This document shows positions 2,078-48,001 of a stretch of 64,000 nt of DNA, piece by piece. The notes below the pieces were generated by a model. It was not told the origin of the DNA. It made no database searches and saw only the letters and a program-made list of their open reading frames with translations. A program made the translations under genes and the position numbers. Position 1 is the stretch's first letter; every line of letters begins with the position of its first letter. Origin of the DNA: Halostella pelagica (GTDB taxonomy: Archaea; Halobacteriota; Halobacteria; Halobacteriales; Natronoarchaeaceae). Where the stretch lies: contig CP040678.1 of NCBI GenBank assembly GCA_005954745.1, positions 1,054,001-1,118,000 of the forward strand. The letters run 5' to 3'.

Positions 2078-4105
2078 TCACTCCAACTCTATCGCTTTAC
2101 TAGCTGCATCAAGCGGATCGGTGTAAAATACGAGTTGAAGTTGATCCAAGAGTTCATCGGGTATCTTCGCTAGGTCCTCTTTATTTTTCGCGGGGAGTAA
2201 CACCGTCTTCGCTCCCGAATCAGCGGCTAACTGGAGTGTATCTACTAATGAACTCACAGCAACCAGTTCTCCCATCAAACTCATAGCACCTAGAACTACA
2301 GTTTGTGGGCGGACCGGCCGGTCGAGAATGCCGGAGACGATCCCAACAAGTAATCCGACACTTGTCTCACCACCTTCGCTCGCGTCTGCTGGATTGAGTA
2401 CCTGTACATTGATATTGTACTCATCCAGCGTCTCATCGCGGCGGAGTTCTCGCATATTCGCCTGAAGGTAGTCGCACGCAGTCTCGAACGACTCTTTCAT
2501 CTTTGTCCCCGGCGTTCCAGAGATGTTCGTCTTCCCGGAACCAGGAAGCGTTTGAGTTTCGATACGGAACGGAGCGTGACGACCTTCGCTTTCGCCGATG
2601 GTGTAGACAGTGCCTGCTTGCTGTGTACCGGGCGGAATAAGCGCCTCATCGGCCTCCTCGGGAACCGGAACGTAGAGTTCTTCTTTCGTTTCTAAGTCCA
2701 GATAGGAGAATTCGACTGCCCGATACTCCATTCCACCCATCCGCTTCAACTGCTCTTTGACACGGCGTCGCCCCTCCATAGCGAATTCGAGATACTCCCG
2801 GAGCTCCTCTTTCGTGTATTCCCCGTGCGGGTGGAGCAGTTTGATCAGGCCAGATACCGTCTTCCGGACGGCCCTTTCGTCTCGTTGGTTCAGGTGGTCC
2901 CCGAACGCGAACTCCTCATTGATCGCATCCCCATAGGATTCCTTGCGGAGTTCGCGGACGAACTCGGCGAAGTAATCGACGATGAATCCGAACTGGTCAC
3001 CGAAAAACTCGGAGCGCATCTTCGGGACTTCCCAGCCGGGGAGGTAGTAGTGGAAGCGATCGATGAGGGCGAGGTCCTGCATATCTTCTGGGAACGGCTC
3101 GAAGAGGTGGGAGCTCTTGAGAACGCCTTCGACATCCAGATCGATGTTTCCGACGTAGACCATCGATGCCTGCGCTGTGAGTTCTTCAGTGCCGCGAGAG
3201 AAGCTTCCCGACTCCATGTAGTCTTTGAGCATCTGGACTGCTTCAGAGTCGCTGAACTGGAGGCCACCGACTTCGTCGAATGCAACGACATCCCAACGGC
3301 CAACAAGTCCAATCCGCCCCGTGTTGAGGTTCAGAAAGAGCTTCGCAACGGTGGTTTTTCCACCCGAGATGAGAATCGAGTGCGGGCTGATTTCCCGATA
3401 TAGGTAACTCTTCCCAGTTCCGCGAGGGCCCAGCTCGACGTAATTGTAGTTGGATTCGACGAGGGGAAGACACCGAGTCAAAAAGAGCAGTTTCTCGCGG
3501 TCGCTGAACGCGGTAGGGTCGTACCCGACGCTCTGGAGGAGAAGGTCCATCCACTCGTCGCGCGTGAATTCTCGTCGACGGTCTTTCAACTGATCCAGGT
3601 CAAGGTTCGACACCTGTATCGGTTTGAACGAGTCGATGCCGAACAGGCTCTTGGGGCTGTTCGCGTTATCCGGAAGGTATTCCAGATCGATGATGGCCCA
3701 GACACCGCCTCCCAGAAGCTTCGGGTGCTTGCTGACGAGGTGTTCGTTAATTTCGACGTCGTTGAGTCCGAGGTTGACGAACGAGCCGATGTAGGCGTCC
3801 TGCTGCTCGTCGAGTCTGACGGTTACTTTGTCGATGACTCGGTATCGCCCTCGCTCACGCACTTCGCTTTTGACGTACTCGGCCTCATCAGGGCGAACGT
3901 AATGCTTCGACAGAATTTGTTTGACTTTTTCGAGCCCCTCCTCAAGCGATTCCTCATCGTCTGTGGCGCAGTATTGTCCGATGAGGTATTCGAGAACATA
4001 GGTGGGGACGTTTACTCCCGACTTGATATCTTGAACGAGATCCTTCCGGACGACGCGTCCGGGAAAGACGTCGAGAGCTTTCTGATCGACGTCCTCAGTA
4101 CTCAT
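2078..4105 (-). CDS. brxL: BREX protein BrxL (Lon-like AAA+ protein)
   Basis: A 675-residue protein with the BrxL plan: an N-terminal domain, an AAA+ ATPase and a C-terminal Lon-like domain. Walker A is GPRGTGKS at about residue 226 and Walker B is VVAFDEVGG. The Lon-like region (about 550-675) aligns by eye with S16 proteases through to KNKEDLAKIPDELL. The nucleophile-like Ser582 is kept, but Lon's GGLKEK segment reads SSLVDT at 618-623, so the dyad lysine is missing and proteolysis is unlikely. Known BrxL proteins form DNA-binding ring assemblies that act in phage exclusion rather than methylation. It is the last gene of the leftward BREX operon, 125 bases after pglZ, and ends tail-to-tail with the winged-helix gene. 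brxL is typical of type 1 and type 4 BREX. Confidence 0.93.
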   Translation of the reverse strand: MSTEDVDQKALDVFPGRVVRKDLVQDIKSGVNVPTYVLEYLIGQYCATDDEESLEEGLEKVKQILSKHYVRPDEAEYVKSEVRERGRYRVIDKVTVRLDEQQDAYIGSFVNLGLNDVEINEHLVSKHPKLLGGGVWAIIDLEYLPDNANSPKSLFGIDSFKPIQVSNLDLDQLKDRRREFTRDEWMDLLLQSVGYDPTAFSDREKLLFLTRCLPLVESNYNYVELGPRGTGKSYLYREISPHSILISGGKTTVAKLFLNLNTGRIGLVGRWDVVAFDEVGGLQFSDSEAVQMLKDYMESGSFSRGTEELTAQASMVYVGNIDLDVEGVLKSSHLFEPFPEDMQDLALIDRFHYYLPGWEVPKMRSEFFGDQFGFIVDYFAEFVRELRKESYGDAINEEFAFGDHLNQRDERAVRKTVSGLIKLLHPHGEYTKEELREYLEFAMEGRRRVKEQLKRMGGMEYRAVEFSYLDLETKEELYVPVPEEADEALIPPGTQQAGTVYTIGESEGRHAPFRIETQTLPGSGKTNISGTPGTKMKESFETACDYLQANMRELRRDETLDEYNINVQVLNPADASEGGETSVGLLVGIVSGILDRPVRPQTVVLGAMSLMGELVAVSSLVDTLQLAADSGAKTVLLPAKNKEDLAKIPDELLDQLQLVFYTDPLDAASKAIELE

Positions 4106-26349: not shown

Positions 26350-27087
26350 TTAGTTGATATTTGCGACGGTCCGCCGGTAGGTGTCGTCGAGATCAGAACC
26401 GCCGAGTGCTGTGTAGAGGTTGATGAGGTCCGCGACGTCACTGAGACAGTAGTCTTTGAGGAGTTGCTTGAGTTCGCGGTGGACGCTGGTATGTTCAATG
26501 TCGGCTTCGATGTTTTGTACGTATTTGTTGCCGAGGACTTGCCCGATGTGCTTGCCGTGGACAGCTTTCCCGTCTATTCCAGAGAGGTAGTTGTCGGGGA
26601 AGTCGTAGTCGTCGTACCAGACGCTGTCGTTGTCGATCCCAACAAGGTCGTAGACTTTCCAGTCAGGCAGGATGTGCTGGTCGTCCCAGAGCTCGGCTTC
26701 GTACTCGTCGGCGGCCGCGAGCGCGACATCAACGTGGTTCTCGAACAAGGCTTCTGTGCGTGGTAAGAAGTCTTGGTCAGCACTATCGTCGATGTCGCGG
26801 GCCCAGTTCAGCAAATGCGTGCCGTCGAACCAGGTACCGTTGTACGTGAGGAGACGATCTACGCTGCGGTCATCACACCACTCGAAGAGGCGCTCGTAGA
26901 GATCAATCGTATACTGGTCGTCCCAATCGCCGCTCCGAAACAACACCTCGGTTTCTGGTGTATCGTTCAGGTCGCCAGCGTACGCGAGGCTGACAGCGAA
27001 GAATTCGAAGTACTGGGTGTCGTTCGAGTTGTCGGGCGGCTCTTCGAACGGGCTCGCAGTTTCAATGTCGATGACAAGTGTTCCCAT
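26350..27087 (-). CDS. DEDD 3'-5' exonuclease (RNase H-like)
   Basis: A 245-residue acidic protein with all three exonuclease motifs of the group related to the family B polymerase proofreading domain: LVIDIETASPF (Asp7, Glu9), LLTYNGTWFDGTHLL (Asn and Asp) and DYCLSDVADLINLY (Tyr and Asp). The region between the first two motifs holds the EFFAVSLAYAGD strand expected of the fold. It should degrade DNA or RNA from the 3' end with two metal ions. It is monocistronic, with 150-base gaps on both sides. It resembles, but is not close to, the partial exonuclease at the left edge. Confidence 0.75.
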   Translation of the reverse strand: MGTLVIDIETASPFEEPPDNSNDTQYFEFFAVSLAYAGDLNDTPETEVLFRSGDWDDQYTIDLYERLFEWCDDRSVDRLLTYNGTWFDGTHLLNWARDIDDSADQDFLPRTEALFENHVDVALAAADEYEAELWDDQHILPDWKVYDLVGIDNDSVWYDDYDFPDNYLSGIDGKAVHGKHIGQVLGNKYVQNIEADIEHTSVHRELKQLLKDYCLSDVADLINLYTALGGSDLDDTYRRTVANIN

Positions 27088-34787: not shown

Positions 34788-36467
34788 TCAACAGATAAGT
34801 AAAAACAGCCAGAATGGGAGATAGCAGATACTGGTCTCATCCTTCTCAATGACCAGAGATTCGTCTTTTCTGGCTTCCTTTGGCAAGCTGTCGGTAATGA
34901 TGAACCGGTACGGTGCCTGGTAGTCGAACTCTTGTAGCTCTTCACTGTCGGATTCGGTGTGCTGGCCGGATTCGGGGGTGAACTCTTCGGCGATTGTCTC
35001 GGCGTTACCAGTGTGTGGGTGGTAGGAGAGGATGAAAGGGTGGACGTGCCCGTTGCGGTGGAGGATGTAGTCAACGAGGCCGGATTCGGTTTCGGTGTAT
35101 TCGACGTCGTATGCTCCGACGTTGAAGGCGAGGCGTTTGGCGTGGTCGAAGGCGACTGTGCGGGCGAGTTTGTATTCGAATTCGTGGTTGAGGGTGTCTT
35201 GTCGTTCGTACGCTTCGAAGCCGTGGTGTTCCTGGCGTTGGGAGAGGAGGACGAGGTGGCGTGGGTTGCGGAGGTACAAGCGGGTGCGGCGGTAGCGTCG
35301 CAGGGAGTAGTCGTGGGATTCGGTGACGGCGATGCCTTCGTCGAGCACGTCGAGGTAATTGTCGACGGTTCGCCTGTCAACGCCGATTTGATCGCTGAGA
35401 TCGGTGTACTGGAGTTCTTCACCGGCGTTGGTGGCGGCGATGGAACTGAGTCGGTGGAGGTTTTCGGGTTGTTGGATGGATCGGTGCTTGGCGAGTTCTT
35501 TGTAGAGGAAGAGGAGGAAGTGGGATTTTGAGAGGTCGTTCCGGATTGACGGGTCGTCTGTTTGGTGGAGGGTGCCGCCTGTTCGGAGGTATGCGCGCGC
35601 GGCGTCGTGGAGGTTGTTTCGGTCGTCCTCGTCAAAAATGCCGAAGCAGAGTTCTGAGAGTGTCTCAACAGCTGTGTCGAGACTGGGTTCCGAATTTGTT
35701 CCGGAAAGCCCGGTTCGAATTGTTTTGATCGGTGATGGGCCGTCTAAGTCGGGTGATTGGAATTGTTCGAGTTGGGTTCGGAATTTCTCAGTGAATGTGA
35801 CGCCCAGGCCTTTGCCCGTTTGGACGGTGTCGATGAATTTCATCGGGAGGATGGGCCATGGGCCTTCGAATTCATCGACGGTATCGGCGGTTTCGACGGT
35901 GGAGAGGTTGACCTGTGCGCGGACGTTGCCGGTTAGAAATACGTACGTATTGTTGTCGATCAGGTCGAGTAGCTCTGCTTTGCGGTTCTCGTCGAGGTCA
36001 AGGGCTTGGACGTCGTCGAGGAGGATGAATTTCTGTCCTTGACGGGGTGCGACGTGGGTCTGGAAGTAGTCGATGACCTGGCTGAGGCGTTTGATGTCGT
36101 CGCCTGGGCGTTCCAGCTGATACAGAGAGTCTTCTAACGGGAGATAGAGGATTTGTCTGGGGGAGAGTGCGGAGGTGAGTTCGAGGTCTTGGTTTTGGTG
36201 CGGCAAGTCCGTTGTGTCGAGGAGGGCTGCGATGAGTTGGTGGAGAAGCGTGGTTTTCCCGATGCCGGTTTGGCCGTGAATTGCGTAGACGAGACTCTCA
36301 ACGTCGTCAGTGTAGTGGGCGCTTGTTTCCTTGAAGACGCGATGGAAATCAGAGCGAGGGGTGAGGTCTGTGGCCTGCGATAGTTCCGGGGAAGTGCCGT
36401 CATTCCACCACTGGTTGTGGTGTTCGGCGTCGTCGATGAATTCTTCTGCGGTTCCTGTCCCGAGCAT
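34788..36467 (-). CDS. COG1373-type AAA ATPase with helix-turn-helix (DUF4143-like)
   Basis: A 559-residue ATPase. Walker A is IHGQTGIGKTTLLHQL near residue 65, Walker B is FILLDDVQALD and the following strand is VFLTGNVRAQ. A RAYLRTGGTLHQ segment resembles the GG(F/M)P region of this family. A helix-turn-helix follows (TDLSDQIGVDRRTVDNYLDV), then a nuclease-like tail in which the usual Glu-x-Lys is not conserved (VDYILHRNGHVHPFILSY). COG1373 proteins are abundant in archaea and mostly uncharacterised; some are tied to mobile elements. It is divergent from the Argonaute operon across 257 bases, so the two may share a control region. Participation in that system is speculative. Confidence 0.75.
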   Translation of the reverse strand: MLGTGTAEEFIDDAEHHNQWWNDGTSPELSQATDLTPRSDFHRVFKETSAHYTDDVESLVYAIHGQTGIGKTTLLHQLIAALLDTTDLPHQNQDLELTSALSPRQILYLPLEDSLYQLERPGDDIKRLSQVIDYFQTHVAPRQGQKFILLDDVQALDLDENRKAELLDLIDNNTYVFLTGNVRAQVNLSTVETADTVDEFEGPWPILPMKFIDTVQTGKGLGVTFTEKFRTQLEQFQSPDLDGPSPIKTIRTGLSGTNSEPSLDTAVETLSELCFGIFDEDDRNNLHDAARAYLRTGGTLHQTDDPSIRNDLSKSHFLLFLYKELAKHRSIQQPENLHRLSSIAATNAGEELQYTDLSDQIGVDRRTVDNYLDVLDEGIAVTESHDYSLRRYRRTRLYLRNPRHLVLLSQRQEHHGFEAYERQDTLNHEFEYKLARTVAFDHAKRLAFNVGAYDVEYTETESGLVDYILHRNGHVHPFILSYHPHTGNAETIAEEFTPESGQHTESDSEELQEFDYQAPYRFIITDSLPKEARKDESLVIEKDETSICYLPFWLFLLIC

Positions 36468-36724: not shown

Positions 36725-39394
36725 ATGGCAGTGAAGGACGACATCGAGGATGGGGAACAGATCGATATCTCACTGCGCGTCACAGGGACTGACGAGTGGG
36801 ATCACGACGCCATCGCTCGGAAAGTTCAGTTGGCGGACGTCGAAGGGACGCCAGTGGAGCTGACTGTGTTCCACAGTAACGAGATCGCGGATTTCGAGTG
36901 GGAGGTCGGACGCTGGTACGTGCTGGAGAACGTTGTCGGGAACGAATACCGCGGCGAGATGCAACTCAACCCGGGGTATGACCTGATCGTTACGCCACTC
37001 GACGAGCCACCTACTGCAGCCGAGAACAGCGGGGCAGAGAACACATCGGCTGCGCAGTCCTCCGGAAGTGACGCTTGCGAATCTTCATCGGAGGCAGATT
37101 CAAGCGATGAGTCGGAGTTCGTTCGGGGGAGTGACGTGACGAGTGAGCCACGGCCGACCGCAGATGGTGGCGGTGAACTGTTACACCAACACCCGTTGTC
37201 GGAAGGGAACTACTTGCTACAGTTCGAGCTCGGGGACTTGCCGGAACTCATTGTCCACGAATATGAACTCCGCGCAACCGGAAGCGGCGGGCTCGACCCG
37301 GATGACTTCACGAACGGGATTGAGGGATTCACGGCGAAAGCAGCGAACTACTACCAGTCACGGAGTAACAGCCCGGTCACGACAGCTGATGCGGCCCGGC
37401 GGCGTATCTACGCGACCGAAAAGCTCCACAGCACGATCTCGATCCACGGGTACACCATCGAACCCATCCACCAAGGCAAGACGACTCTAGAGGCACGCTC
37501 GTACACGGACGACGGGCCGCTCCAGGAGTTCGTCAAACAGGATGTGAAGCACGCTGTTGCTGGTCGCTTCGAGGTGTCGGGGATCGATTCGATCATCGAG
37601 CCCACCCCGCAGCGAACTGCGAACAGCGGGTTGTTCGAAGCCTATCGGAAGTACAAGTGCCGGATTCGTGTTGATGCTGACGGGACTGTGATTTGTGGCG
37701 TGAACGTCGCGTACCACCTCGAATCGACGTTCTCTGCCGCCGAGTGGGTAGAACGTGGACATGACATCGCCGAGGTGACCGTCGAGCACGACACTGACCT
37801 GTACGACAGTGCTCGCACGGCAACGGTTCAGGAGGTCATCGATATGGACTACGATGATGTGCTGGACGGGCCGGGCGTCCCGATGTCTGAGTACCACGAG
37901 AAGCACGTCGAGCAGGATGTTATCGACTCGATGCGGGCCGGTGACCCAATTATCGCTGATCTACAGTACGGGAGCGGTGATGATTCGATCTTCCCGCAGC
38001 TCTTGGAGTACTGTAAGGTCATCCCGACGTTCGATCAACTCGCCGAAGTCGACGACGAGTTCCTACAGGTCATCCACCGGGAGAGTCGGATGAAACCCGA
38101 CAAGCGGTTCAGTGTCGTCACGTCCTTCGTGGACGGAGTCGGCCCGACACCCTACTTCGGATTTGACCCTGTCCCGCAACCCACGAACACTTGCTATCGA
38201 GAACAAGAAATTCGCGGTGGCCCGAACCTCCGTTTTGGTGGCGGGAAAACCGGGTTCTACGGTGCGGATGGGTTGGAGCGGAAGGGCTACGGGGTGTACA
38301 AGGAACCTGAGTCGTTCGACATTCTGGCGATGTATCCTGAGGACGAGGAGAGCGCGGCACGCCCCTACGTCCTATCGCTACTCCAGAAGCTCGCGGAGTA
38401 CGAGGGGGAACCGACGAAGTTCGAACAAGAAACCTACACGCTTGGGTCGGAATTCCACTACTCGCAGGCCGCACAGGACGCGAGCGAGTATGATGCGGCG
38501 CTAGTCGTCGTTCCGGATAAGGACGACGCGGCGGAAGCGGAGTACGACGATCCCTATCCGGAATTTAAACGCCGACTCGGTCAGCTCGGCGTACCGAGTC
38601 AGATGATCTCCATCGACAACCTCGGTAACGACAACTACCGCGGGAACATCTGTTCGTCGCTTATCGGGAAAGCGGGCGGTGTGCCGTGGCGTATCGACGA
38701 CGTTCCCGGGGACGTTGACGCGTTCGTCGGGCTTGACGTGACGTACGACCACGCGACCAAACAACACCTCGGTGCGGCCGCGAACGTCATCATGGCCGAC
38801 GGAACGATCCTCGCATCTGAGGCGGTCACGAAGCAGGCTGGTGAGACGTTCGACGAGGACGACGTGGCGAACGTCATCAAGCACGTCCTGGAAATCTTCG
38901 CCGAAGAGGAAGGCCGGCCTCCGCGGCACGTCGTGATCCATCGGGACGGGAAGTTCTACCTTGACGTCGAGAACCTCATCAACCGTCTTGACAAAGCCCG
39001 TGATCTCATCAAACGGTTCGACCTTGTCGAGATCCGGAAATCCGGAAATCCCCGTATCGCCGCGTACGACGAATCGAAATCACGGTTCGATATCGCGGAC
39101 AAAGGCGTCGCCTTTCACGTCCACAACGGCGAGCACTCCTACCTGACCACGACTGGCGGGAAGGAGGGCAGCCCCGGCACGCCGCGGCCGTTGCAAATCG
39201 TGAAACGCCACGGGTCGACAGATCTCGACACGCTCGCGGAGCAAACCTACTGGTTGTCGGAAGCGCACGTCGGTTCGCTGAGCCGGTCCATCCGGCTCCC
39301 CATCACCACGTACTACGCCGACAAGTGCGCCGACTTCGCCATGAAGGGGTACCTCACCAAAGGCAGCGTCATCCGCGGCGTTCCATACATCTAA
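36725..39394 (+). CDS. Long prokaryotic Argonaute with N-terminal OB fold (NgAgo-like)
   Basis: An 889-residue Argonaute. Residues 1-100 form an OB-fold/RPA-like domain (ISLRVTGTDEWD, then GRWYVLENVVGNEYRGEMQL). An acidic Ser-rich linker runs to about 155, followed by N, PAZ, MID and PIWI regions. The PIWI tetrad appears complete: Asp671 (FVGLDVTYD), Glu707 (QAGETFDEDD), Asp741 (VVIHRDGKFY) and Asp866 (TTYYADKCADF), so it should be a catalytically competent DNA- or RNA-guided nuclease. From memory, Natronobacterium gregoryi Argonaute has the same plan and almost the same length (887 residues), and shares VEIRK and RLPITT-x-YAD. It is the first gene of a five-gene rightward operon with end-processing helicase-nucleases. 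Guide and target type cannot be read from sequence. Confidence 0.93.
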   Translation: MAVKDDIEDGEQIDISLRVTGTDEWDHDAIARKVQLADVEGTPVELTVFHSNEIADFEWEVGRWYVLENVVGNEYRGEMQLNPGYDLIVTPLDEPPTAAENSGAENTSAAQSSGSDACESSSEADSSDESEFVRGSDVTSEPRPTADGGGELLHQHPLSEGNYLLQFELGDLPELIVHEYELRATGSGGLDPDDFTNGIEGFTAKAANYYQSRSNSPVTTADAARRRIYATEKLHSTISIHGYTIEPIHQGKTTLEARSYTDDGPLQEFVKQDVKHAVAGRFEVSGIDSIIEPTPQRTANSGLFEAYRKYKCRIRVDADGTVICGVNVAYHLESTFSAAEWVERGHDIAEVTVEHDTDLYDSARTATVQEVIDMDYDDVLDGPGVPMSEYHEKHVEQDVIDSMRAGDPIIADLQYGSGDDSIFPQLLEYCKVIPTFDQLAEVDDEFLQVIHRESRMKPDKRFSVVTSFVDGVGPTPYFGFDPVPQPTNTCYREQEIRGGPNLRFGGGKTGFYGADGLERKGYGVYKEPESFDILAMYPEDEESAARPYVLSLLQKLAEYEGEPTKFEQETYTLGSEFHYSQAAQDASEYDAALVVVPDKDDAAEAEYDDPYPEFKRRLGQLGVPSQMISIDNLGNDNYRGNICSSLIGKAGGVPWRIDDVPGDVDAFVGLDVTYDHATKQHLGAAANVIMADGTILASEAVTKQAGETFDEDDVANVIKHVLEIFAEEEGRPPRHVVIHRDGKFYLDVENLINRLDKARDLIKRFDLVEIRKSGNPRIAAYDESKSRFDIADKGVAFHVHNGEHSYLTTTGGKEGSPGTPRPLQIVKRHGSTDLDTLAEQTYWLSEAHVGSLSRSIRLPITTYYADKCADFAMKGYLTKGSVIRGVPYI

Positions 39395-39457: not shown

Positions 39458-41578
39458 ATGACCAAGACAGAATTCGAAGCAACGGTCGAGTTCGATGACG
39501 GCAGCACTGCTGACCTGGAGATGGCTGCCGACAAATCATGGGATAGTTTCCTGAACTACTTCGGTGACGCCCAGCACGTCTACTGCGTCACATACAGTCA
39601 GTCCCCCGCGTTCATCTACAAGATGTTTCAGAACCAGGACCTCGCAGTGGACTCACTGGAAGTCATCGTCGGGGACAACCAACACGACGACTACCGGCGC
39701 TCGCTGAAAAACACGAACAACGCGAAGAAAATCGCCGCGCAACTGGAATCGCTGCGCCAAGACGGTGATCTACTGATCCACACCGTCGATTCCGCACGCG
39801 TCCTGCTTCACACGAAACTCTACATCGTCGAGAATCAGGACGGGTCTCGTACACTGATCTGTGGGTCGGCGAACCTCTCCAAGCAGGCCTGGCAGGGGAG
39901 TAAGCAAACCAACGTCAACATCGCTTGGCGTACCGATGGGGACACGCCCGTCGACGAGTGGTTCGAACGGCTTTACGCGTTCCACAAGGACTACGCGACG
40001 CCGTTCATGGAGGACCTCACCGAGGAGATCGAGGACGCCGAAACGGCAGAAGAAGAGGCGAAGATCTACGATATCTGGCTGGGTGGCGACGAGTTCAGTG
40101 ACGACCCGATCGCCGAGCTGAACGCACGGCTCGACGAAGCAGTTGACGACGACCAGGTCAACACGTACAACGTCGTCACCGACGCCGAAGAAGCAGAGAA
40201 AGCGGTGTTTGCCGCTGAAGATACGGACACGGATCCAACCGAAATCAGTCCGGACAAGCGTGTCCGCCTCTCCCCGCAGGGCCTCGAAGACGCTATCTCG
40301 AACCTGGATGACACGCTGTCTGCCAATAACATCCGGATCAACGACGGCGAAATCGTAGCGACACCCGCCGGCATCGCGCGGTACAAAGAGACCTTCACTG
40401 GGTATCCTGACCTCAACGTCGATAGAAATGAGAAAAATGTCGGATTGCGGGTTGACGACTCCGTCCTTGAACTAACAGCACCATTGCCGGACGATCCGCA
40501 GGAAGTCGCTGACGCACTCGACCTAATCGAGCAGTACATCGAAACTGTCGGTGAGTTCGGCGAAACGCGAACGCCAAAGGAGACGCGAGCACATTTCTAC
40601 GAAGGAATCATCTACTTCTGCTGGGCTCCGTTCGCTAACTACTGCGCCCATCACTACGCCGAATACGAGTCCGCAGAACTGGACAAGGATCTACCGTTCC
40701 TGTTCCTCCACGGTGACAATGACAGCGGGAAAGGCATGTTCCTGCGGTTCGGGACGCGTCTCATCTCGAACGGGTACGTGCAGGAAGTCACGACCGGGGA
40801 CAACTTCGTCAAAAACAACATCGAGCGAGCTCGTGCGTCGGACACCGTTTTCCCGTACATCGTTGACGACGTGGCGAAGTCGAAAATCGACCGTGACATC
40901 ATCAAGTCGTACTGGGAGGGGAAGTGGGACGGGTCTATCCAGATGCCGACGTTCATTTTCTCCTCGAACGACTCCACGAAGCCGAAATCCGAACTCCGAA
41001 CTCGGATGAAGACGCTGGATTTCAACGTTAACTTCTCCGAACTGAAGAAGGACGAACGCGAAGCTGCCGCGCAGATCGCGGGGCAGGCAGACAGTTGTAA
41101 CCTGTTCCCGTGGTTCGCCCACCTGTTCTTGCAGCGGGATATCTCGCTACCAGATCAGTCGGATCGGCTCGCGGATGCTCGGGACGTGTTCGCGGAGCTG
41201 TACGCGTATGCCGAGAAGGAACCACCAGAGTACGTGCCGCTGGAGACACCCGCCGAGCAGGAGCACGATCCGGGGCGTCGGAAGTGGATCAGTGCGCTGT
41301 CCGACGGGCTGTGTGAACTCGATTTCAAGGACGACGGGCGGATTGTCGCTGATTTCTCGGCACATCTGGACCAGCAGCAATGCTGGGAGTTCCAGAAGGC
41401 CACGCCAGCCCATATCCGGGCGGGTATTTACGGGCCGGCGGTTCAGTTTGAAAGCGCGAACAGGTTCCAGAATTGGATTGATGAGCCCAGTGTCATTGAA
41501 GATGCACGACGCGATACCGAGGCAGCCGCTGGCGACACCGGTGTGCTGTCTCGGGTCACGCGGCTCGTCCGAGGGTAA
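39458..41578 (+). CDS. PLD-family nuclease fused to an SF3-like AAA+ ATPase
   Basis: A 706-residue two-part protein. The N-terminal 190 residues form a phospholipase D-type nuclease half-site: LLHTKLYIVENQDGSRTLIC (His-x-Lys) followed by GSANLSKQAW. With only one such motif, two subunits would have to pair. After an acidic linker, the C-terminal half has a P-loop LFLHGDNDSGKGMFLRFG near residue 420, a Walker-B-like YIVDDVAKSKID, and FIFSSNDSTKPKSELRTRMK with sensor Asn and arginine-finger candidates. This recalls superfamily 3/D5-type helicases of phages and plasmids. The gene starts 63 bases after the Argonaute gene and ends 5 bases before the next. It probably nucleolytically processes or motors along DNA recognised by the system; this is an inference. 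Confidence 0.75.
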   Translation: MTKTEFEATVEFDDGSTADLEMAADKSWDSFLNYFGDAQHVYCVTYSQSPAFIYKMFQNQDLAVDSLEVIVGDNQHDDYRRSLKNTNNAKKIAAQLESLRQDGDLLIHTVDSARVLLHTKLYIVENQDGSRTLICGSANLSKQAWQGSKQTNVNIAWRTDGDTPVDEWFERLYAFHKDYATPFMEDLTEEIEDAETAEEEAKIYDIWLGGDEFSDDPIAELNARLDEAVDDDQVNTYNVVTDAEEAEKAVFAAEDTDTDPTEISPDKRVRLSPQGLEDAISNLDDTLSANNIRINDGEIVATPAGIARYKETFTGYPDLNVDRNEKNVGLRVDDSVLELTAPLPDDPQEVADALDLIEQYIETVGEFGETRTPKETRAHFYEGIIYFCWAPFANYCAHHYAEYESAELDKDLPFLFLHGDNDSGKGMFLRFGTRLISNGYVQEVTTGDNFVKNNIERARASDTVFPYIVDDVAKSKIDRDIIKSYWEGKWDGSIQMPTFIFSSNDSTKPKSELRTRMKTLDFNVNFSELKKDEREAAAQIAGQADSCNLFPWFAHLFLQRDISLPDQSDRLADARDVFAELYAYAEKEPPEYVPLETPAEQEHDPGRRKWISALSDGLCELDFKDDGRIVADFSAHLDQQQCWEFQKATPAHIRAGIYGPAVQFESANRFQNWIDEPSVIEDARRDTEAAAGDTGVLSRVTRLVRG

Positions 41579-41583
41579 TAGAC

Positions 41584-43641
41584 ATGTCTGATCACTCATC
41601 TCCCCGGCAGTTCGACGGGACGTTAGTCACGGTACCGTTCGGGGGCGAAAACGTCGAACGGACAGCGCGAAACGAATACCGAATGCTTCTCGACGAGCAC
41701 GATTCTGAGGATGTGCTCGTCATCACGGGTGCGCCGACGAGTACGGATACGTTCCGGGAGACGTTAGGTGAGGAGGTCCCCGGTGCCGCGACGCCGTACG
41801 TGACTTCACTCGTGGTGCATGCGACTGACGTGCTTAATCAGACTGATGACCGCGTCATTCTCTCCGACGCCCTGCGACGGGAACTCCTGTACCGGTTCCT
41901 CGCAGACTACGAGTGGGAAACGGAGTACCTCCAACGGGCGTCTGCGCACCCGTCGTTCATTGAGGACGTGGATGCTGTGATGGGCACGATCTCCTGGCAA
42001 ACGGTCACGCCTGACGAGACCCCGGAACTCCGTGACATCACGGCTGCACTTGACGCGTTCCACGAGTGGCTCGCCGAGCACGGGCACATGGAGCGCGGGC
42101 AACTCATCTCGGACGCGCTCGATGTCCTCACCGGGGATGCCCGTGACGAGATCGTTGATTTCGACGCGGTGCTCGCAGTCGAGTTTGAGGAGTTCTTCCC
42201 GCTTGATCGCGCGTATCTCGACGCACTCGCGGGAGACTGCGAGCTTGTCTGTGTTGCCGAAGAGAACGCGAGTGTGCGCCGGACGTGGGTCGAGACAGGG
42301 CCAGTCACGGACTACGTCTCGTTCAGCGAGTCCCGACCCGGGACATCGGGGACGCCGTCGACGCGACCAGCTGCGACGGCAGCCTATTTCGCCGAAGAAA
42401 CGGTTCCGGAAGATCCGGGAGCCGGGTCGGTGTCCGTCCTCGCTACAGACTCCAGTGACGAACAACTCGCTGAGATTGCGAACGAGATTGAAGAGCTCGT
42501 CGCGCAGCCGGACTGGGGGTACGACGACATCGCTGTCGCCACGAAGCAAAGCGGCAGTGCTGTTACGGACATTATCGAAGCGTTCGAAGGCACCGGGATT
42601 CCAACGGAATCGACGACCGTCACTGGATTCGGTGACGACCCAGCGATCCGAGAACTCCTCGCGGCCGTTCGATACCTCGCCGACGACGAATATGATGTGC
42701 CCGACCACGGTCCGACACTCGATACAGAGCGCTTAGACCGCGTCAACGAGGCAGAAAGCATCGAAGACACGATTCGCTGGTGGGCGACAGACGCAGGATT
42801 AAAAGAACGGATCGCGGAGCGAGCAGCCCCGCTTGACGCTCGGGCTCAGTTCGGGAACGTCAAGCGAGCGTTCCGCATGGCCGAGTTCCTCGAAGAGACC
42901 GAGTTCGTGGAGGCGACGTGGAAATCCTTCAAGGAGATGCTCGAACGAGCCCACGAATACGCACCACAGCAGAATCAGACAAGCGCGACGGATCTCAACG
43001 GCGGCGTCCGCGTCGATCACCTGCAAGCGATTAAGAACGAGTCCTTTCGCGCGGTCTTTCTCGTAAATCTCGTCGACAGTGAGTACCCAGGCGACCCGTT
43101 CCTGACACGGCTGTTCCCGAACGAGCGGGTCGCGTCGATGCCGGACTACCCTGGTGTCACGGAACTCGATGGGGCGGATGTGGATGCGACGTTCCCGACG
43201 ACGTCGACAGCGTCAGGACGACCGTTCGCGCAGTACCACACGGAGTATGCGCGACGACGGTTGGCTATCGGTGCGGGCGCGGCGGCAGAGCGGCTCTACT
43301 GTTGTCTCTACGAATACGAAGACACGGCGCTCGAAGAGCAGACGCAGGCGTCGCGGTTCCTCACAGCGGCGTATGAGGATCTTCCGTGGGTGACCGAGGC
43401 CGACGAGCCACACATTACGAGTGAGCAAGCGGCGGAGCAGTACCTGCTGTCGCGGGTTGACGACGCGCTCGCGGAGGTGCGCCGCGCGAATAGTCAGGAC
43501 GTGACGGTGTCGCTTGACGAGATCGAAGCGGAACTCGGAGAGATTCAGGACCTGCTCGAACAAAGCGGCTCCCGAGGGGACGAGCTCCGAGAAGCGTTGC
43601 GTGCACGTGTCGAGTTCGCTAACGGGGAGGTGCGGCGATGA
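41584..43641 (+). CDS. AddB/RecC-like inactivated helicase subunit
   Basis: A 685-residue protein with the layout of a UvrD-like helicase that has lost its active site. The N-terminal strand LVTVPFGGENVERTARNEY stands where GxxxxGKT should be. A DAVLAVEFEEFFPLDRAYLD segment sits at the motif II position without the DExx pattern. GVRVDHLQAIKNESFRAVFL then VNLVDSEYP resembles motif V (IHxxKGLEF) but is degenerate. This is typical of AddB and RecC subunits, which scan or scaffold DNA. It overlaps the Fe-S nuclease gene by 4 bases (ATGA). In true AddB the nuclease is fused at the C terminus; here it is a separate overlapping gene. Partnership with the two downstream proteins is inferred from overlap and family. 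Confidence 0.7.
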   Translation: MSDHSSPRQFDGTLVTVPFGGENVERTARNEYRMLLDEHDSEDVLVITGAPTSTDTFRETLGEEVPGAATPYVTSLVVHATDVLNQTDDRVILSDALRRELLYRFLADYEWETEYLQRASAHPSFIEDVDAVMGTISWQTVTPDETPELRDITAALDAFHEWLAEHGHMERGQLISDALDVLTGDARDEIVDFDAVLAVEFEEFFPLDRAYLDALAGDCELVCVAEENASVRRTWVETGPVTDYVSFSESRPGTSGTPSTRPAATAAYFAEETVPEDPGAGSVSVLATDSSDEQLAEIANEIEELVAQPDWGYDDIAVATKQSGSAVTDIIEAFEGTGIPTESTTVTGFGDDPAIRELLAAVRYLADDEYDVPDHGPTLDTERLDRVNEAESIEDTIRWWATDAGLKERIAERAAPLDARAQFGNVKRAFRMAEFLEETEFVEATWKSFKEMLERAHEYAPQQNQTSATDLNGGVRVDHLQAIKNESFRAVFLVNLVDSEYPGDPFLTRLFPNERVASMPDYPGVTELDGADVDATFPTTSTASGRPFAQYHTEYARRRLAIGAGAAAERLYCCLYEYEDTALEEQTQASRFLTAAYEDLPWVTEADEPHITSEQAAEQYLLSRVDDALAEVRRANSQDVTVSLDEIEAELGEIQDLLEQSGSRGDELREALRARVEFANGEVRR

Positions 43642-44543
43642 GTCAGGAGTCGCTCTCACCGTCGCGGCTGGCGAACTACGCGACGTGTCCGCGGTTGTAC
43701 GATTACCGGTACGTACAGGACGTGAACGCGCCGGACAGGACTGAACTCTACCTCAATCAGGGGACGATTTACCACGAGACTATCGAAGACACGTGTGATG
43801 AGACCAACCGCGACGATGCCCCGGAGGTGGTTCACGACCGGGCGATGAAGATTTTCGATGCGAAATGGGACGAACACAGCAGCGCGGACGATTACGAATC
43901 ACGAGCACATCGGGAGTACCAGCGTGCTGAGAACCTGGCTGCCATCGAGTCGTTCTTCGATCCTGACGGCGGGGTCGGCATCGAACACGCCCGTCGCTCA
44001 ATCACAACCGAGTGCTGGGTGGAATGTGAAGTAGATGGGCGAGGGCTTCACGGGAAAGCAGACAACGTCATCCGGACCGACGAGGGCCTCCACATAGTCG
44101 ATTACAAGCGGAAAACACACGGGATGCTCTCTGACGGGACAGCCGAGTACCTTGGCGACCACCTTGACGGGGAGGCGCACGAGCCGAAGCGTGTGCGGAA
44201 CGCGTTCCAGACGGCGACGTACATCGAGGGCGTGAAGAACGAACCGTTCTACGAGGACGGGATGGAGGTCAGGTTCAGTTTCTACGGCCTCCTCAACAAA
44301 ACGTCGTTCGAGAGCACAGCGTCTGGATATGACGTGTCTGCGCGTGGGTGGCCGCGGGAAACGACGGAGATCTACGAAGACCACTACGAAACGATTTGGG
44401 GGCTCATTCGCGCAGCGCACGACGGAATCACGAACGGAGCCCACGAACCAGAACCGTTCAATCTCCTCAACGAGGAGGCGTGCCCGGACTGTGACTATCG
44501 AGAGATGTGTGCGGATCGCCTGTCGACGGAGGTGCGGCGATGA
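43638..44543 (+). CDS. Cas4/RecB-like Fe-S nuclease
   Basis: A 301-residue PD-(D/E)XK nuclease of the Cas4/AddB type. An N-terminal Cys (LANYATCPRLYDYRY) and a C-terminal Cys-x2-Cys-x5-Cys (CPDCDYREMC) give the four ligands of an iron-sulfur cluster. The active site is HGKADNVIRTDEGLHIVDYK (Asp, then Asp-x-Lys) with an upstream GTIYHETIED histidine and a downstream QTATYIEGV motif. It overlaps both neighbours by 4 bases, so it is translationally coupled to the AddB-like gene and the helicase gene. It probably supplies the nuclease module missing from the AddB-like protein. A Cas4-like adaptation role is unlikely because no CRISPR array or cas genes are seen. Confidence 0.85.
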   Translation: MSQESLSPSRLANYATCPRLYDYRYVQDVNAPDRTELYLNQGTIYHETIEDTCDETNRDDAPEVVHDRAMKIFDAKWDEHSSADDYESRAHREYQRAENLAAIESFFDPDGGVGIEHARRSITTECWVECEVDGRGLHGKADNVIRTDEGLHIVDYKRKTHGMLSDGTAEYLGDHLDGEAHEPKRVRNAFQTATYIEGVKNEPFYEDGMEVRFSFYGLLNKTSFESTASGYDVSARGWPRETTEIYEDHYETIWGLIRAAHDGITNGAHEPEPFNLLNEEACPDCDYREMCADRLSTEVRR

Positions 44544-47500
44544 GCGACGACGGTGATGACTACCCGTCGTGGTACCCGGTCCCGGAAGAAGATGTATCCC
44601 CGGAACCCCAGCAAGAGACGATCATCGATTCCGACGCGTACCCGATGCGTGTGCTCGCCGGTGCGGGGACGGGGAAGACGTTCACGATGGTGCGGAAGAT
44701 CGAGCACCTCATCGACGAGGAAGACGTCTCGCCGGACCGGATTCTCGCGTTGACGTTCACGAACAACGCGGCGGACTCGATGCGGGAGAAACTTAACGCG
44801 AAACTCGGGACCGCGGGGTACGACATCGACGCGTACACGTACCACTCGATCTGTAACGAGATCCTCACTGACTACGCGTACGAAGCCGGGATCGACCCGG
44901 ACTTCGAGGTCGCCATGGATGCCGAGAAGTACGCTATCGTGCTGGATGTTCTCGACGACATCGAGTACCGGTCGGTCAAACCCAACGTGTACGGCAGCGA
45001 CGGGTACGCGTCCGGAGCCGCGTCGAAGCTGCTCAGTTTCATCGGGTCGATGAAGCGCAGCGGCATCTCGCCAGATGACATCGACGCGTTCCTTGGGCCT
45101 GCTGATCGCGTCTACGATCTCGCCGATCTTCCGGAGCGCATCGAAACGATTGCCAGCGATCATCTCGGCGGCCGGTCTGTGTCGAGCGTGCTGGACTCAC
45201 TTCCCGATGTGCGCGATGAGCTCGCCGCGGAACGCGACGCATTGGGAACGGACGGGATCGAAGCCAGTACTCGGGATTTCCTCGACCGGCTCGTCGATCT
45301 GTGTGATGCGCTTGAAACCGCGTTCGAGGCCCACGAAGATGGCGCGCGTGACCTGCCAGACAACGCGTACAAACTCCCGAAGTACCTGTTCGGAGGGTAC
45401 GCAAGCGGTGCTCCGAAAGGGATCCCAGACGATCTGGATCTTGAACTCACGGACCACCTCGACTCGTTCGTTTCCGACTGTCTTGCTGCCCGAGATCTCA
45501 CCGCAGGGTACGCTGCGTACGAGCGAGAACTGGACGAGCGCAATCTCATTGACTTCGACGGCCTGGTGGTCGAGACGGCTGCGCTGATGGACTCTCCGGT
45601 TGGTGAGGAAATCGCCGAGCGGTGGGACTACGTATTCTGCGACGAGTTCCAAGACACGGATCGCCTTCAGTTCGACCTCGTCACGTCACTTGTTTCCGAC
45701 GAGAATCTGTTCGTCGTCGGGGACGACGATCAGGCGATCTACGAATGGCGCGGCGCGAACGTCGCTAATATCACCGACGAACTGGACCAGGCGTTCGCGG
45801 CGCTCACGGACGAACCGCTGGAGGAGAACTTCCGCTCCCGTCAGCCGATTCTCAACCTATCGAACGAGGCAATTCAGAAACTCGATCACCGTGAGCGGCA
45901 CAAGACGCTCACTCGCGTCGACGAACCCGCGTACGATGGAGACACTGTCGCTACCGTCGAATTACCAGACGAAGACGATGCGGACGGTGCACCCCAACTT
46001 CGTACCGTTGTCCAGAATTTACTGAGCGGTGCAGCAGAAAATCTCGATGAGGTGTACGATCCAGGCGATATTGCGTTACTCGTGCGAAAGCACGCTCACG
46101 CGACACCTGTCATCGAAGAATTCGAAGACGCTGGTATCCCGTACCAAGTTGCTGGCGATCTGGCAACGGAATCCGTCGGCGTCGGCACCGTCACTGCCTA
46201 CCTGAAAGCGCTCGCACGCCCCGAAGACGAGGTGAGCTGGAATCGCATCCTCCTGATGCGGTACCGGCTGTGCGACGCGGACCTCCGCACGCTCAACGCG
46301 GGCGACGACCCGCTCGTGGACACTCTCCGGGAGACACGACTCGACGAGTTCGAGGAGCCCGACCGTGTCGCAGAAGCCCGCGAACACGCCACGGAACTAC
46401 TTGATATCCGAGATTCGGCGTCGCTCAGCCACCTGTACCGAGAACTCACGGACCGCACGAACATCGAGTGGTATCTCAGCGAGCAGGAGCGTCGAGATCT
46501 CGCCCAACTGGAGGACGTCATCGAACAGTACGGGGACAGTGCCGTCCAACCACCACTCACCCCGGAGTTCATCGACTCGCTCGAACACTACGACTCCCTG
46601 TTCGACGAGAGTGGCACCACACCCACGAGTCAGCCGGACGTCGCCGACGACGCTGTCAACGTGATGACCATCCACAAAAGCAAGGGCCTAGACTTCCCCG
46701 TCGTCCTCATACCACAAGTCACCGCCGACGAGTGGGCACCGAGTTCACGCACGTACGACGCGTTCGAAACCAGTCTCTCGGATGGCCCGGAGGAAGCGTT
46801 CGCGCAGGATTTCGTCGAGCGGGATGCCCGTGAGACCCGCCGCGTATTCCACGTCGGGATCACGCGTGCCGAGGACATCCTCGTCCTGCAGGGTGGCAGC
46901 GAGGAAGGCGACGATGCTGGGGACGAGGATTCGGTTTCAGAGCTGGTTGACGAAATCCTCCCATCTCGAATCCCATGGCAGCCGGAGCGAGGACATCTCC
47001 CGCTCTGGACTGATGTCCAAGAGTGTCTCCCGGACGACGCAGTAGACTGGACTAACACGCTGGCCAGCGAGACGGTCGGGAACGTTGGTGGTACCGTCAA
47101 TCACAACGGAGAAGAACTCGCAGTCGAAACGGCGCGGGACCGCGTGATAGACCTCGCAACAGCCACCCTCAACGGGAATCTCTCTCCGAGAGCCCAGCGG
47201 GAGACACTCCAGGTTGCGTCGCTGACCGGTCCATCGACGCCAGCACCGTCGCTCTCGCACAGCTACACGTCGCTAGCAGCCTACGAGGAGTGCCCGCGGA
47301 GCCACTACTTGGACTACGTGGTCAACGCATTCCCCGATTATCAGGAGACAGCGGCTACGAACGGATCTGGTGATGGCGTGTCGCAACGTACAATCGGGTT
47401 GTTGTTCCACGATACCGCCGAGCAAGCTGCGAATCAAAATGTGGAACGCCGTGAAGAGTGGTACGAGATCTGCGAGCGGCTCGCCAGTCAGCGCCGCGCT

Positions 47501-48001
47501 GAGGACGCGCTCCCGGCAGCAAAACAATCCATCGACCGGTACTTCGAATTAGATCTCACGAGTTACGAACTCATCGACGCAGAACGAGAGTTCGAACTGG
47601 AGATCGATGGACACGAGCTCGTCGGGTTCATCGACGCCGTCTACCGAACGCCGAATGGTGAGCTTCTCGTCATCGACTACAAGGCGACTGAACGTCACCG
47701 CGACTTACACGACGACAAGCAACTCCCGATCTACCTCTTAGCGTGCCGTGATCTATATGACGAGCCAGTGACGCGCGCCGGGTACGCGTACGTCGGTGAG
47801 ATCGGGCCGAAAGTCGAAGCGCGAACGTTCCGCGAGGGTGACTTGGAAGCGGTTCGGAACGATGTGATGGAATCGATGAACCGTATTGCTGAATTCTCCT
47901 TCGGCGAGTACACAGCTGGCGAGCACTGTCAGTGGTGTCAACACAACCAACTGCCCTGCGCACCAGACTCGTTTACCGTTGGCCCAGGGTTCGAGGAGTA
48001 A
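44540..48001 (+). CDS. UvrD-type helicase-nuclease (AddA/RecB-like)
   Basis: A 1,153-residue superfamily 1A helicase with a C-terminal nuclease. Helicase motifs: VLAGAGTGKTFTMVRK (residues about 36-51), LALTFTNNAADSM, YVFCDEFQDTDRLQF, VVGDDDQAIYEWRGA, NVMTIHKSKGLDFPVVLI and VFHVGITRAED. The nuclease part has ECPRSHYLDYV, LLFHDTAE, LVGFIDAVYRTPNGELLVID and then YKAT, with QLPIYLLAC, and ends in CQWCQHNQLPC. That gives four cysteines for an Fe-S cluster, as in AddB rather than AddA. The ATG at 44540 overlaps the preceding stop by 4 bases. With the two genes upstream it makes an AddAB/RecBCD-like set able to unwind and cut DNA from broken ends. Confidence 0.9.
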   Translation: MSDDGDDYPSWYPVPEEDVSPEPQQETIIDSDAYPMRVLAGAGTGKTFTMVRKIEHLIDEEDVSPDRILALTFTNNAADSMREKLNAKLGTAGYDIDAYTYHSICNEILTDYAYEAGIDPDFEVAMDAEKYAIVLDVLDDIEYRSVKPNVYGSDGYASGAASKLLSFIGSMKRSGISPDDIDAFLGPADRVYDLADLPERIETIASDHLGGRSVSSVLDSLPDVRDELAAERDALGTDGIEASTRDFLDRLVDLCDALETAFEAHEDGARDLPDNAYKLPKYLFGGYASGAPKGIPDDLDLELTDHLDSFVSDCLAARDLTAGYAAYERELDERNLIDFDGLVVETAALMDSPVGEEIAERWDYVFCDEFQDTDRLQFDLVTSLVSDENLFVVGDDDQAIYEWRGANVANITDELDQAFAALTDEPLEENFRSRQPILNLSNEAIQKLDHRERHKTLTRVDEPAYDGDTVATVELPDEDDADGAPQLRTVVQNLLSGAAENLDEVYDPGDIALLVRKHAHATPVIEEFEDAGIPYQVAGDLATESVGVGTVTAYLKALARPEDEVSWNRILLMRYRLCDADLRTLNAGDDPLVDTLRETRLDEFEEPDRVAEAREHATELLDIRDSASLSHLYRELTDRTNIEWYLSEQERRDLAQLEDVIEQYGDSAVQPPLTPEFIDSLEHYDSLFDESGTTPTSQPDVADDAVNVMTIHKSKGLDFPVVLIPQVTADEWAPSSRTYDAFETSLSDGPEEAFAQDFVERDARETRRVFHVGITRAEDILVLQGGSEEGDDAGDEDSVSELVDEILPSRIPWQPERGHLPLWTDVQECLPDDAVDWTNTLASETVGNVGGTVNHNGEELAVETARDRVIDLATATLNGNLSPRAQRETLQVASLTGPSTPAPSLSHSYTSLAAYEECPRSHYLDYVVNAFPDYQETAATNGSGDGVSQRTIGLLFHDTAEQAANQNVERREEWYEICERLASQRRAEDALPAAKQSIDRYFELDLTSYELIDAEREFELEIDGHELVGFIDAVYRTPNGELLVIDYKATERHRDLHDDKQLPIYLLACRDLYDEPVTRAGYAYVGEIGPKVEARTFREGDLEAVRNDVMESMNRIAEFSFGEYTAGEHCQWCQHNQLPCAPDSFTVGPGFEE

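Follow-up and report, generated by a model that had tools for sequence, protein, structure and literature searches.

An OB domain at the N terminus of prokaryotic Argonautes (pAgos) is already published: in the part of Ryazansky 2018 drawn on here (PMC6299218) the OB-fold SSF50249 is given on 8 long pAgos, and the N-terminal RepA domain of NgAgo has been described, with binding of target DNA reported for it (PMC10908814). In the APAP system immunity to an ssDNA virus needs the active site of the Argonaute NpAgo; AgaP is toxic alone and its toxicity is suppressed by NpAgo, which the authors tie to the MID domain of the Argonaute (PMC11442185). The anatomy that an initial annotation proposed for the Argonaute described here is correct and mostly known in kind, the unexpected part being an OB-exonuclease that stands in for an Argonaute elsewhere. 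How pAgos acquire guides and choose invader DNA is a long-standing question, and as NpAgo is genetically tractable in Haloarcula hispanica the role of the OB domain in guide loading is directly approachable there.

The Argonaute locus

The window, a stretch of 64,000 nucleotides from Halostella pelagica, contains a single ORF (36725-39394 (+)) for a long pAgo of 889 aa (Table 1). The PADLOC pAgo model covers residues 78-889 (E=0) and Pfam Piwi residues 606-872 (E=1e-20), and with a full-length core that includes MID-PIWI and an intact DEDX catalytic tetrad the protein belongs to the long-A pAgos; D671, E707, D741 and D866 of its DEDD tetrad are invariant in 12 diverse haloarchaeal Agos. The AgaP homologue follows after 63 bp, within the 31-64 bp reported for APAP, and is homologous to NpAgaP at 32% identity. 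Its PLD motifs H118xK120 and G136SAN139 are present with a compact spacing of 18 residues, the published separation of ~50 residues being absent, and a P-loop-like motif, GDNDSGKG, was read by eye in its C-terminal half.

The stand-alone DEDD exonuclease lies 9.6 kb from the Argonaute and its membership of the system is uncertain. A copy of it that is 75% identical is found near an NgAgo-like Ago (L050 about 3147-3833), and a homologue lies directly upstream of an OB-Ago in Natrialba asiatica (L066 4322-5236).

Table 1. Features of the Argonaute locus, with positions in the window
Feature	Coordinates	Strand	Basis
Stand-alone DEDD-type exonuclease	26350..27087	-	Related to exonuclease half of OB-exonuclease family
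Divergent AAA_14 + DUF4143 ATPase	34788..36467	-	Domain search; adjoins every clade A/B OB-Ago examined
RPA-like OB domain (Ago residues 1-96)	36725..37012	+	AF2, Foldseek, VIA-align, hhalign to RPA, hmmsearch alignment to 1o7i
Disordered Ser/Thr-rich, acidic linker (Ago residues 97-152)	37013..37180	+	Low pLDDT; composition; pN/pS 0.52
Argonaute core	37181..39394	+	PADLOC pAgo, Pfam Piwi, DEDD tetrad
AgaP homologue, N-terminal PLD nuclease domain + C-terminal part with P-loop-like motif	39458..41578	+	PLDc_2 E=3e-7
UvrD_C/AddB-like protein	41584..43641	+	Weak UvrD_C match; conserved in cassette
PD-(D/E)XK nuclease (Cas4/RecB type)	43638..44543	+	PDDEXK_1 E=3e-23
UvrD/RecB-type helicase-nuclease	44540..48001	+	UvrD-helicase E=3e-60, PDDEXK_1 E=9e-26

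An RPA-like OB domain and its linker

The initial annotation had read residues 1-100 as an RPA/OB domain followed by an acidic linker and had asked for a fold prediction of residues 1-155, which bears the domain out and refines its limits to residues 1-96. AlphaFold, given these residues with 18 relatives, predicts strands at 12-24, 30-37 and 43-49, a helix at 53-56 and strands at 64-75, 78-82 and 88-92, with block pLDDT of 86-94 over residues 1-90. The order beta-beta-beta-alpha-beta-beta over residues 12-82 (pLDDT ~90) is the five-stranded topology of an OB fold with its helix between strands 3 and 4, on which AF2, Foldseek and VIA-align agree. Among PDB structures Foldseek puts first the Methanosarcina mazei MM0293 OB domain (2ken, E=4e-7), which VIA-align also ranked first (Z 13.9); POT1, Teb1, SsoSSB, hSSB1 and RPA come next, and many of these structures contain ssDNA. 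A mis-read PAZ domain or linker was ruled out as the domain precedes the Argonaute core and folds alone. Pfam has no model for this OB domain and gave no match to residues 1-100, so absence from a sequence library was not read as absence of the fold.

Separately from the fold, sequence comparison indicates that the domain is kin to archaeal RPA. Phmmer against PDB sequences found 2kbn/2ken (E=0.008), NCBIfam matched replication factor A (E=2e-4), hhalign against haloarchaeal RPA (PRK07217) gave a probability of 94 (E=1.3e-7), and in a profile search of the whole host genome the only match besides the Argonaute was the chromosomal replication factor A (E=2e-4).

Residues 97-152 form the linker that the initial annotation had read; it is flexible, with pLDDT <55 (<50 at 100-124 and 139-142), and its acidity proved ordinary for this protein (D+E 23% vs 24% in the OB domain), serine and threonine being its chief trait (S+T 30%). 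Among 12 close orthologues dN/dS is ~0.16 for the OB domain (dN 0.11, dS 0.68) and ~0.31 for the linker (dN 0.37, dS 1.17), with pN/pS of 0.24 vs 0.52, and the Argonaute core evolves more slowly than the OB domain; the OB domain is thus maintained by purifying selection, and the linker is loosely constrained.

In the hmmsearch alignment to 1o7i, two aromatics of the predicted binding face have counterparts in SsoSSB: F49 aligns with W56 and Y75 with F79, residues that contact ssDNA and matter for its binding (PMC8954794), which makes ssDNA binding by the Ago OB plausible. The F49 position is W in clade B and the NgAgo type (see below), and the Y75 position is F or Y in most members and H in one; the position of SsoSSB W75 is non-aromatic (V71 or R). 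HvRPA3, a single acidic haloarchaeal OB, binds ssDNA in 3 M KCl (PMC3438722).

Distribution among haloarchaea

In a survey of 391 Halobacteria genomes a full-length OB-Ago that is identical or 83-91% identical was found in 13 (window included), and about ten or more further genomes encode diverged OB-Agos (36-54% identical) in which the OB domain is kept, its own identity ranging from 30 to 96% across Halobacteria. In the MID-PIWI tree these fall into two groups, the window clade (clade A) and the NpAgo clade (clade B), and the same half of the tree holds a clade of 10 long-pAgo loci without an OB (clade C), the order of the three being left unsettled by the tree. The other half holds NgAgo, which is thus in a well-supported clade separate from that of the window Ago, and a clade of 4 loci with a different N-terminus; reading the latter as a HARP-like domain was dropped as it had no Pfam support. 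The Ago at L042 (genome G052) we take, from reading its sequence, to be NgAgo, and that of Natrinema ejinorense (L113) is 96% identical to it. NgAgo-type N-termini are predicted OB folds with the same strand order as the window OB and detectable profile-profile similarity to it (probability 76, E=2e-5), so the comparison with NgAgo made by the initial annotation holds. Its conserved haloarchaeal architecture has to be narrowed: it stands for the 13 close and at least ten diverged OB-Agos, not for the clade that lacks an OB or for that with another N-terminus, and an N-terminal OB on haloarchaeal pAgos is therefore common but not universal. The diverged homologue it spoke of does occur in other species, the host genome itself having only one Ago.

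Split OB ORFs upstream of some Agos (L039/L049, L065) were considered as a separate partner gene, a reading that was rejected as their overlapping frames look like frameshifts within the fusion. A scan of viral contigs found no relatives. The OB tree (102 columns) leaves it unclear whether the Ago OBs are one clade, monophyly not being rejected (p-AU 0.16 and 0.22), and we therefore claim no single origin for Ago and exonuclease OBs.

NpAgo carries the same domain

The plasmid locus of N. pellirubrum (L070) is the source of the NpAgo studied in PMC11442185. Its ORF of 847 aa begins with an OB 40% identical to that of the window, whilst the RefSeq start (NC_019963.1 119196-121280, WP_241432791.1) is 153 codons late, so that OB and linker are lost. 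The MID mutants Y570A/K574A of that study fit the numbering of the 847-aa ORF exactly, which shows that its authors numbered the long form, and the term OB-fold is absent from its text. It is new that the tested APAP Argonaute also carries an OB, unmentioned in the paper and cut off in RefSeq.

A cassette with an OB-exonuclease and no Argonaute

Searching the Halobacteria genomes with the AAA ATPase reached loci without an Argonaute (L169-L174), whose gene set consists of the ATPase, AddB-like, PD-(D/E)XK and UvrD proteins (61%, 60% and 68% identity, respectively), a 375-aa OB protein and AgaP. This AgaP shares 81% identity with NpAgaP and 86% with further clade B AgaPs, and the spacing of its H105/K107 and GSPN motifs is the same as in these. 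The 375-aa protein consists of an OB (Ago-OB HMM, E about 1e-11 to 1e-12) and then a DEDDy exonuclease with the motifs D132-x-E134, FD at 211-212 and Y348-xxx-D352, of which D132, E134, D212, Y348 and D352 are invariant in 11 relatives; its profile matches exonuclease domains of family-B polymerases in the PDB. RefSeq names it 'hypothetical', and the AgaP 'tyrosyl-DNA phosphodiesterase'. The OB-exonuclease is not covered by any PADLOC model, and no description of it was found in the literature searched, though other papers could contain one.

The gene is present on seven complete plasmids at 93-100% identity, a near-identity that points to one recent lineage and not many independent cases. Plasmids with the cassette are NZ_CP083669, NZ_CP119781, NZ_CP147876, NZ_CP024045 and NZ_CP101159, and AgaP is missing from one of five annotated plasmid regions (Halorarius). 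On pAArc1-01 the OB-exonuclease and its AgaP carry the locus tags AArc1_RS00065-00070.

Relics of the OB-exonuclease lie beside two OB-Agos. One adjoins NpAgo immediately upstream, on the other strand, where residues 7-76 are recognisable in a broken form (L070 5392-5601 (-), 41%), and a second, interrupted relic occupies the same place in L069 (14453-14659 (+), 52%). Where there is no Argonaute, the OB-exonuclease gene and agaP are divergently oriented; in N. pellirubrum it is ago from which the remnant diverges, and agaP comes after ago. This arrangement is most simply read as an insertion of ago between the OB-exonuclease gene and agaP, followed by decay of the OB-exonuclease, the reverse order being less likely because the exonuclease, and not ago, is the relic. 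There is perhaps an even chance that APAP has an Argonaute-independent counterpart, in which a plasmid-borne OB-DEDDy exonuclease replaces the OB-Argonaute beside AgaP, the ATPase and the AddB-like, PD-(D/E)XK and UvrD proteins, and that the N. pellirubrum Ago entered such a cassette at this point, leaving the decayed OB-exonuclease behind. The cassette raises the question of what part AgaP and its partners play when no Argonaute is present, and suggests a larger defence set on plasmids in which Argonaute is one of two nucleases that can replace each other.

Gene neighbours and the role of the OB domain

The RNase-H-fold nucleases include PIWI as well as the DEDDy exonucleases, and an RPA-like OB precedes both in the same gene neighbourhood. 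We think it probable that the RPA-derived OB, tethered to a catalytically intact long-A pAgo, captures ssDNA as a portable module. The disordered linker of ~55 residues would tether the OB to the Argonaute core, and the OB would bind ssDNA of invaders, be it from plasmids in replication, from ssDNA viruses or from resected ends, and hold it next to the core, which may raise the chance that the core takes a guide from this ssDNA or meets it as a target. The same module could serve interchangeable RNase-H-fold nucleases, be they Ago or DEDDy exonuclease; we infer that it helps guide loading or target capture and that the roles of the two nucleases correspond. This reading is favoured by the OB fold, the kinship to RPA, the kept aromatics, purifying selection, the ssDNA binding of HvRPA3, the target-DNA binding reported for NgAgo RepA, the OB on NpAgo, whose active site is needed for immunity to an ssDNA virus, the OB on the DEDDy exonuclease in a matching context, and the relics beside two OB-Agos. 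Against it, the ten related haloarchaeal Agos without an OB presumably work, OB domains also act as protein-docking modules, the counterpart of SsoSSB W75 is non-aromatic and Y75 is H in one member, and the OB tree is too weak to show a shared recent origin of Ago and exonuclease OBs.

The main rival, which we hold to be unlikely, is that the OB on Ago or exonuclease docks to AgaP or the AAA ATPase and so restrains the toxic AgaP. That AgaP is toxic and suppressed by NpAgo (PMC11442185) would fit, as would the neighbours of the OB-Agos: counted within six genes, with the window added and with relatives included, so that loci are not independent events, clade A and B OB-Agos adjoin the AAA_14/DUF4143 ATPase in 24/24 loci and AgaP in 21/24. 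In the no-OB clade C the figures are 0/10 and 1/10, and in NgAgo-type OB loci 0/8 and 1/8. The OB tracks AgaP and the divergent ATPase, not helicases, and the Ago-less cassette keeps an AgaP 81% identical to NpAgaP with the OB-exonuclease as its only OB protein. However, an AgaP homologue occurs with an Ago that lacks an OB (L031), OB-exonucleases occur without AgaP (the Halorarius plasmid; L085-L087), the kept aromatics suit a surface that binds nucleic acid, and suppression of AgaP has been tied to MID. Between clades A and B the ATPase keeps 59-67% identity at most loci, against only ~36% for the Ago, as if the ATPase had been exchanged or strongly constrained.

For the initial annotation the OB perhaps served to load the Argonaute with ssDNA that the helicase of the operon, a UvrD/AddAB-like helicase-nuclease, had produced, which now seems improbable. 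Helicase-nuclease genes do follow Ago in every complete window-clade locus, and pAgos are more active in vitro when helicases are present (PMC6114923). But a UvrD/RecB-type helicase accompanies only 13 of the 24 clade A and B loci, 12 of them in the window clade, so that 9/10 clade B loci have an OB with no such helicase nearby (1/10 with one), as do 8/8 NgAgo-type loci (0/8 with one), and 5/10 clade C loci have the helicase without an OB. These counts argue against an OB that exists for the sake of helicase-coupled loading, although a helicase acting in trans could take part, and co-occurrence with helicases was dropped as an explanation once neighbours had been counted. A relict OB, or one that is a mere solubility tag with no role of its own, is very improbable, for although one clade has lost the OB, it is kept at 30-96% identity across Halobacteria under purifying selection (pN/pS 0.24 vs 0.52 in the linker).

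Other helicases also occur near these Agos. The NgAgo-like Agos of L047, L048, L050 and L080 come after a DEAD/MrfA-type helicase and an RNase_H_2/HHH (MrfB-like) gene, the helicase being followed by an OB-exonuclease in L047 and by an exonuclease without OB in L050. Two OB-Ago loci that are 50% identical have a ~1500-aa AAA_11/AAA_12 helicase in place of AgaP (L063 854-5401 (-), L065 8532-13016 (+)), one of the two with a weak PD-(D/E)XK match. A DUF2797 gene immediately adjoins NgAgo-group Agos in L041 and L047 (Pfam-confirmed) and is a neighbour in L043-L045.

Comparison with known systems

The haloarchaeal replication factor A (PRK07217) belongs to the same OB sequence family as the Ago OB, and differs in that it stands alone, is chromosomal and has further domains, whereas the Ago OB is a fused single domain. 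The pAgos listed by Ryazansky 2018 (PMC6299218) have the same architecture, and in the part of that source used here neither clade nor kinship to RPA, neither system context nor an exonuclease counterpart is given. NgAgo of Natronobacterium gregoryi is likewise a haloarchaeal long pAgo with an N-terminal OB ('RepA'), the same predicted strand order and detectable profile similarity; however its Ago is 25% identical to that of the window and belongs to a separate clade, no AgaP or AAA ATPase adjoins it, and related loci have a DUF2797 neighbour. Also close is the APAP system of N. pellirubrum, in which, as in the window, an OB-Ago is closely followed by AgaP with a divergent AAA ATPase nearby. 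The window cassette adds the AddB-like, PD-(D/E)XK and UvrD genes, and its compact AgaP, 32% identical, differs from that of N. pellirubrum, in which an acidic insert separates the HxK and GSxN motifs and their ~50-residue split has been called distinctive.
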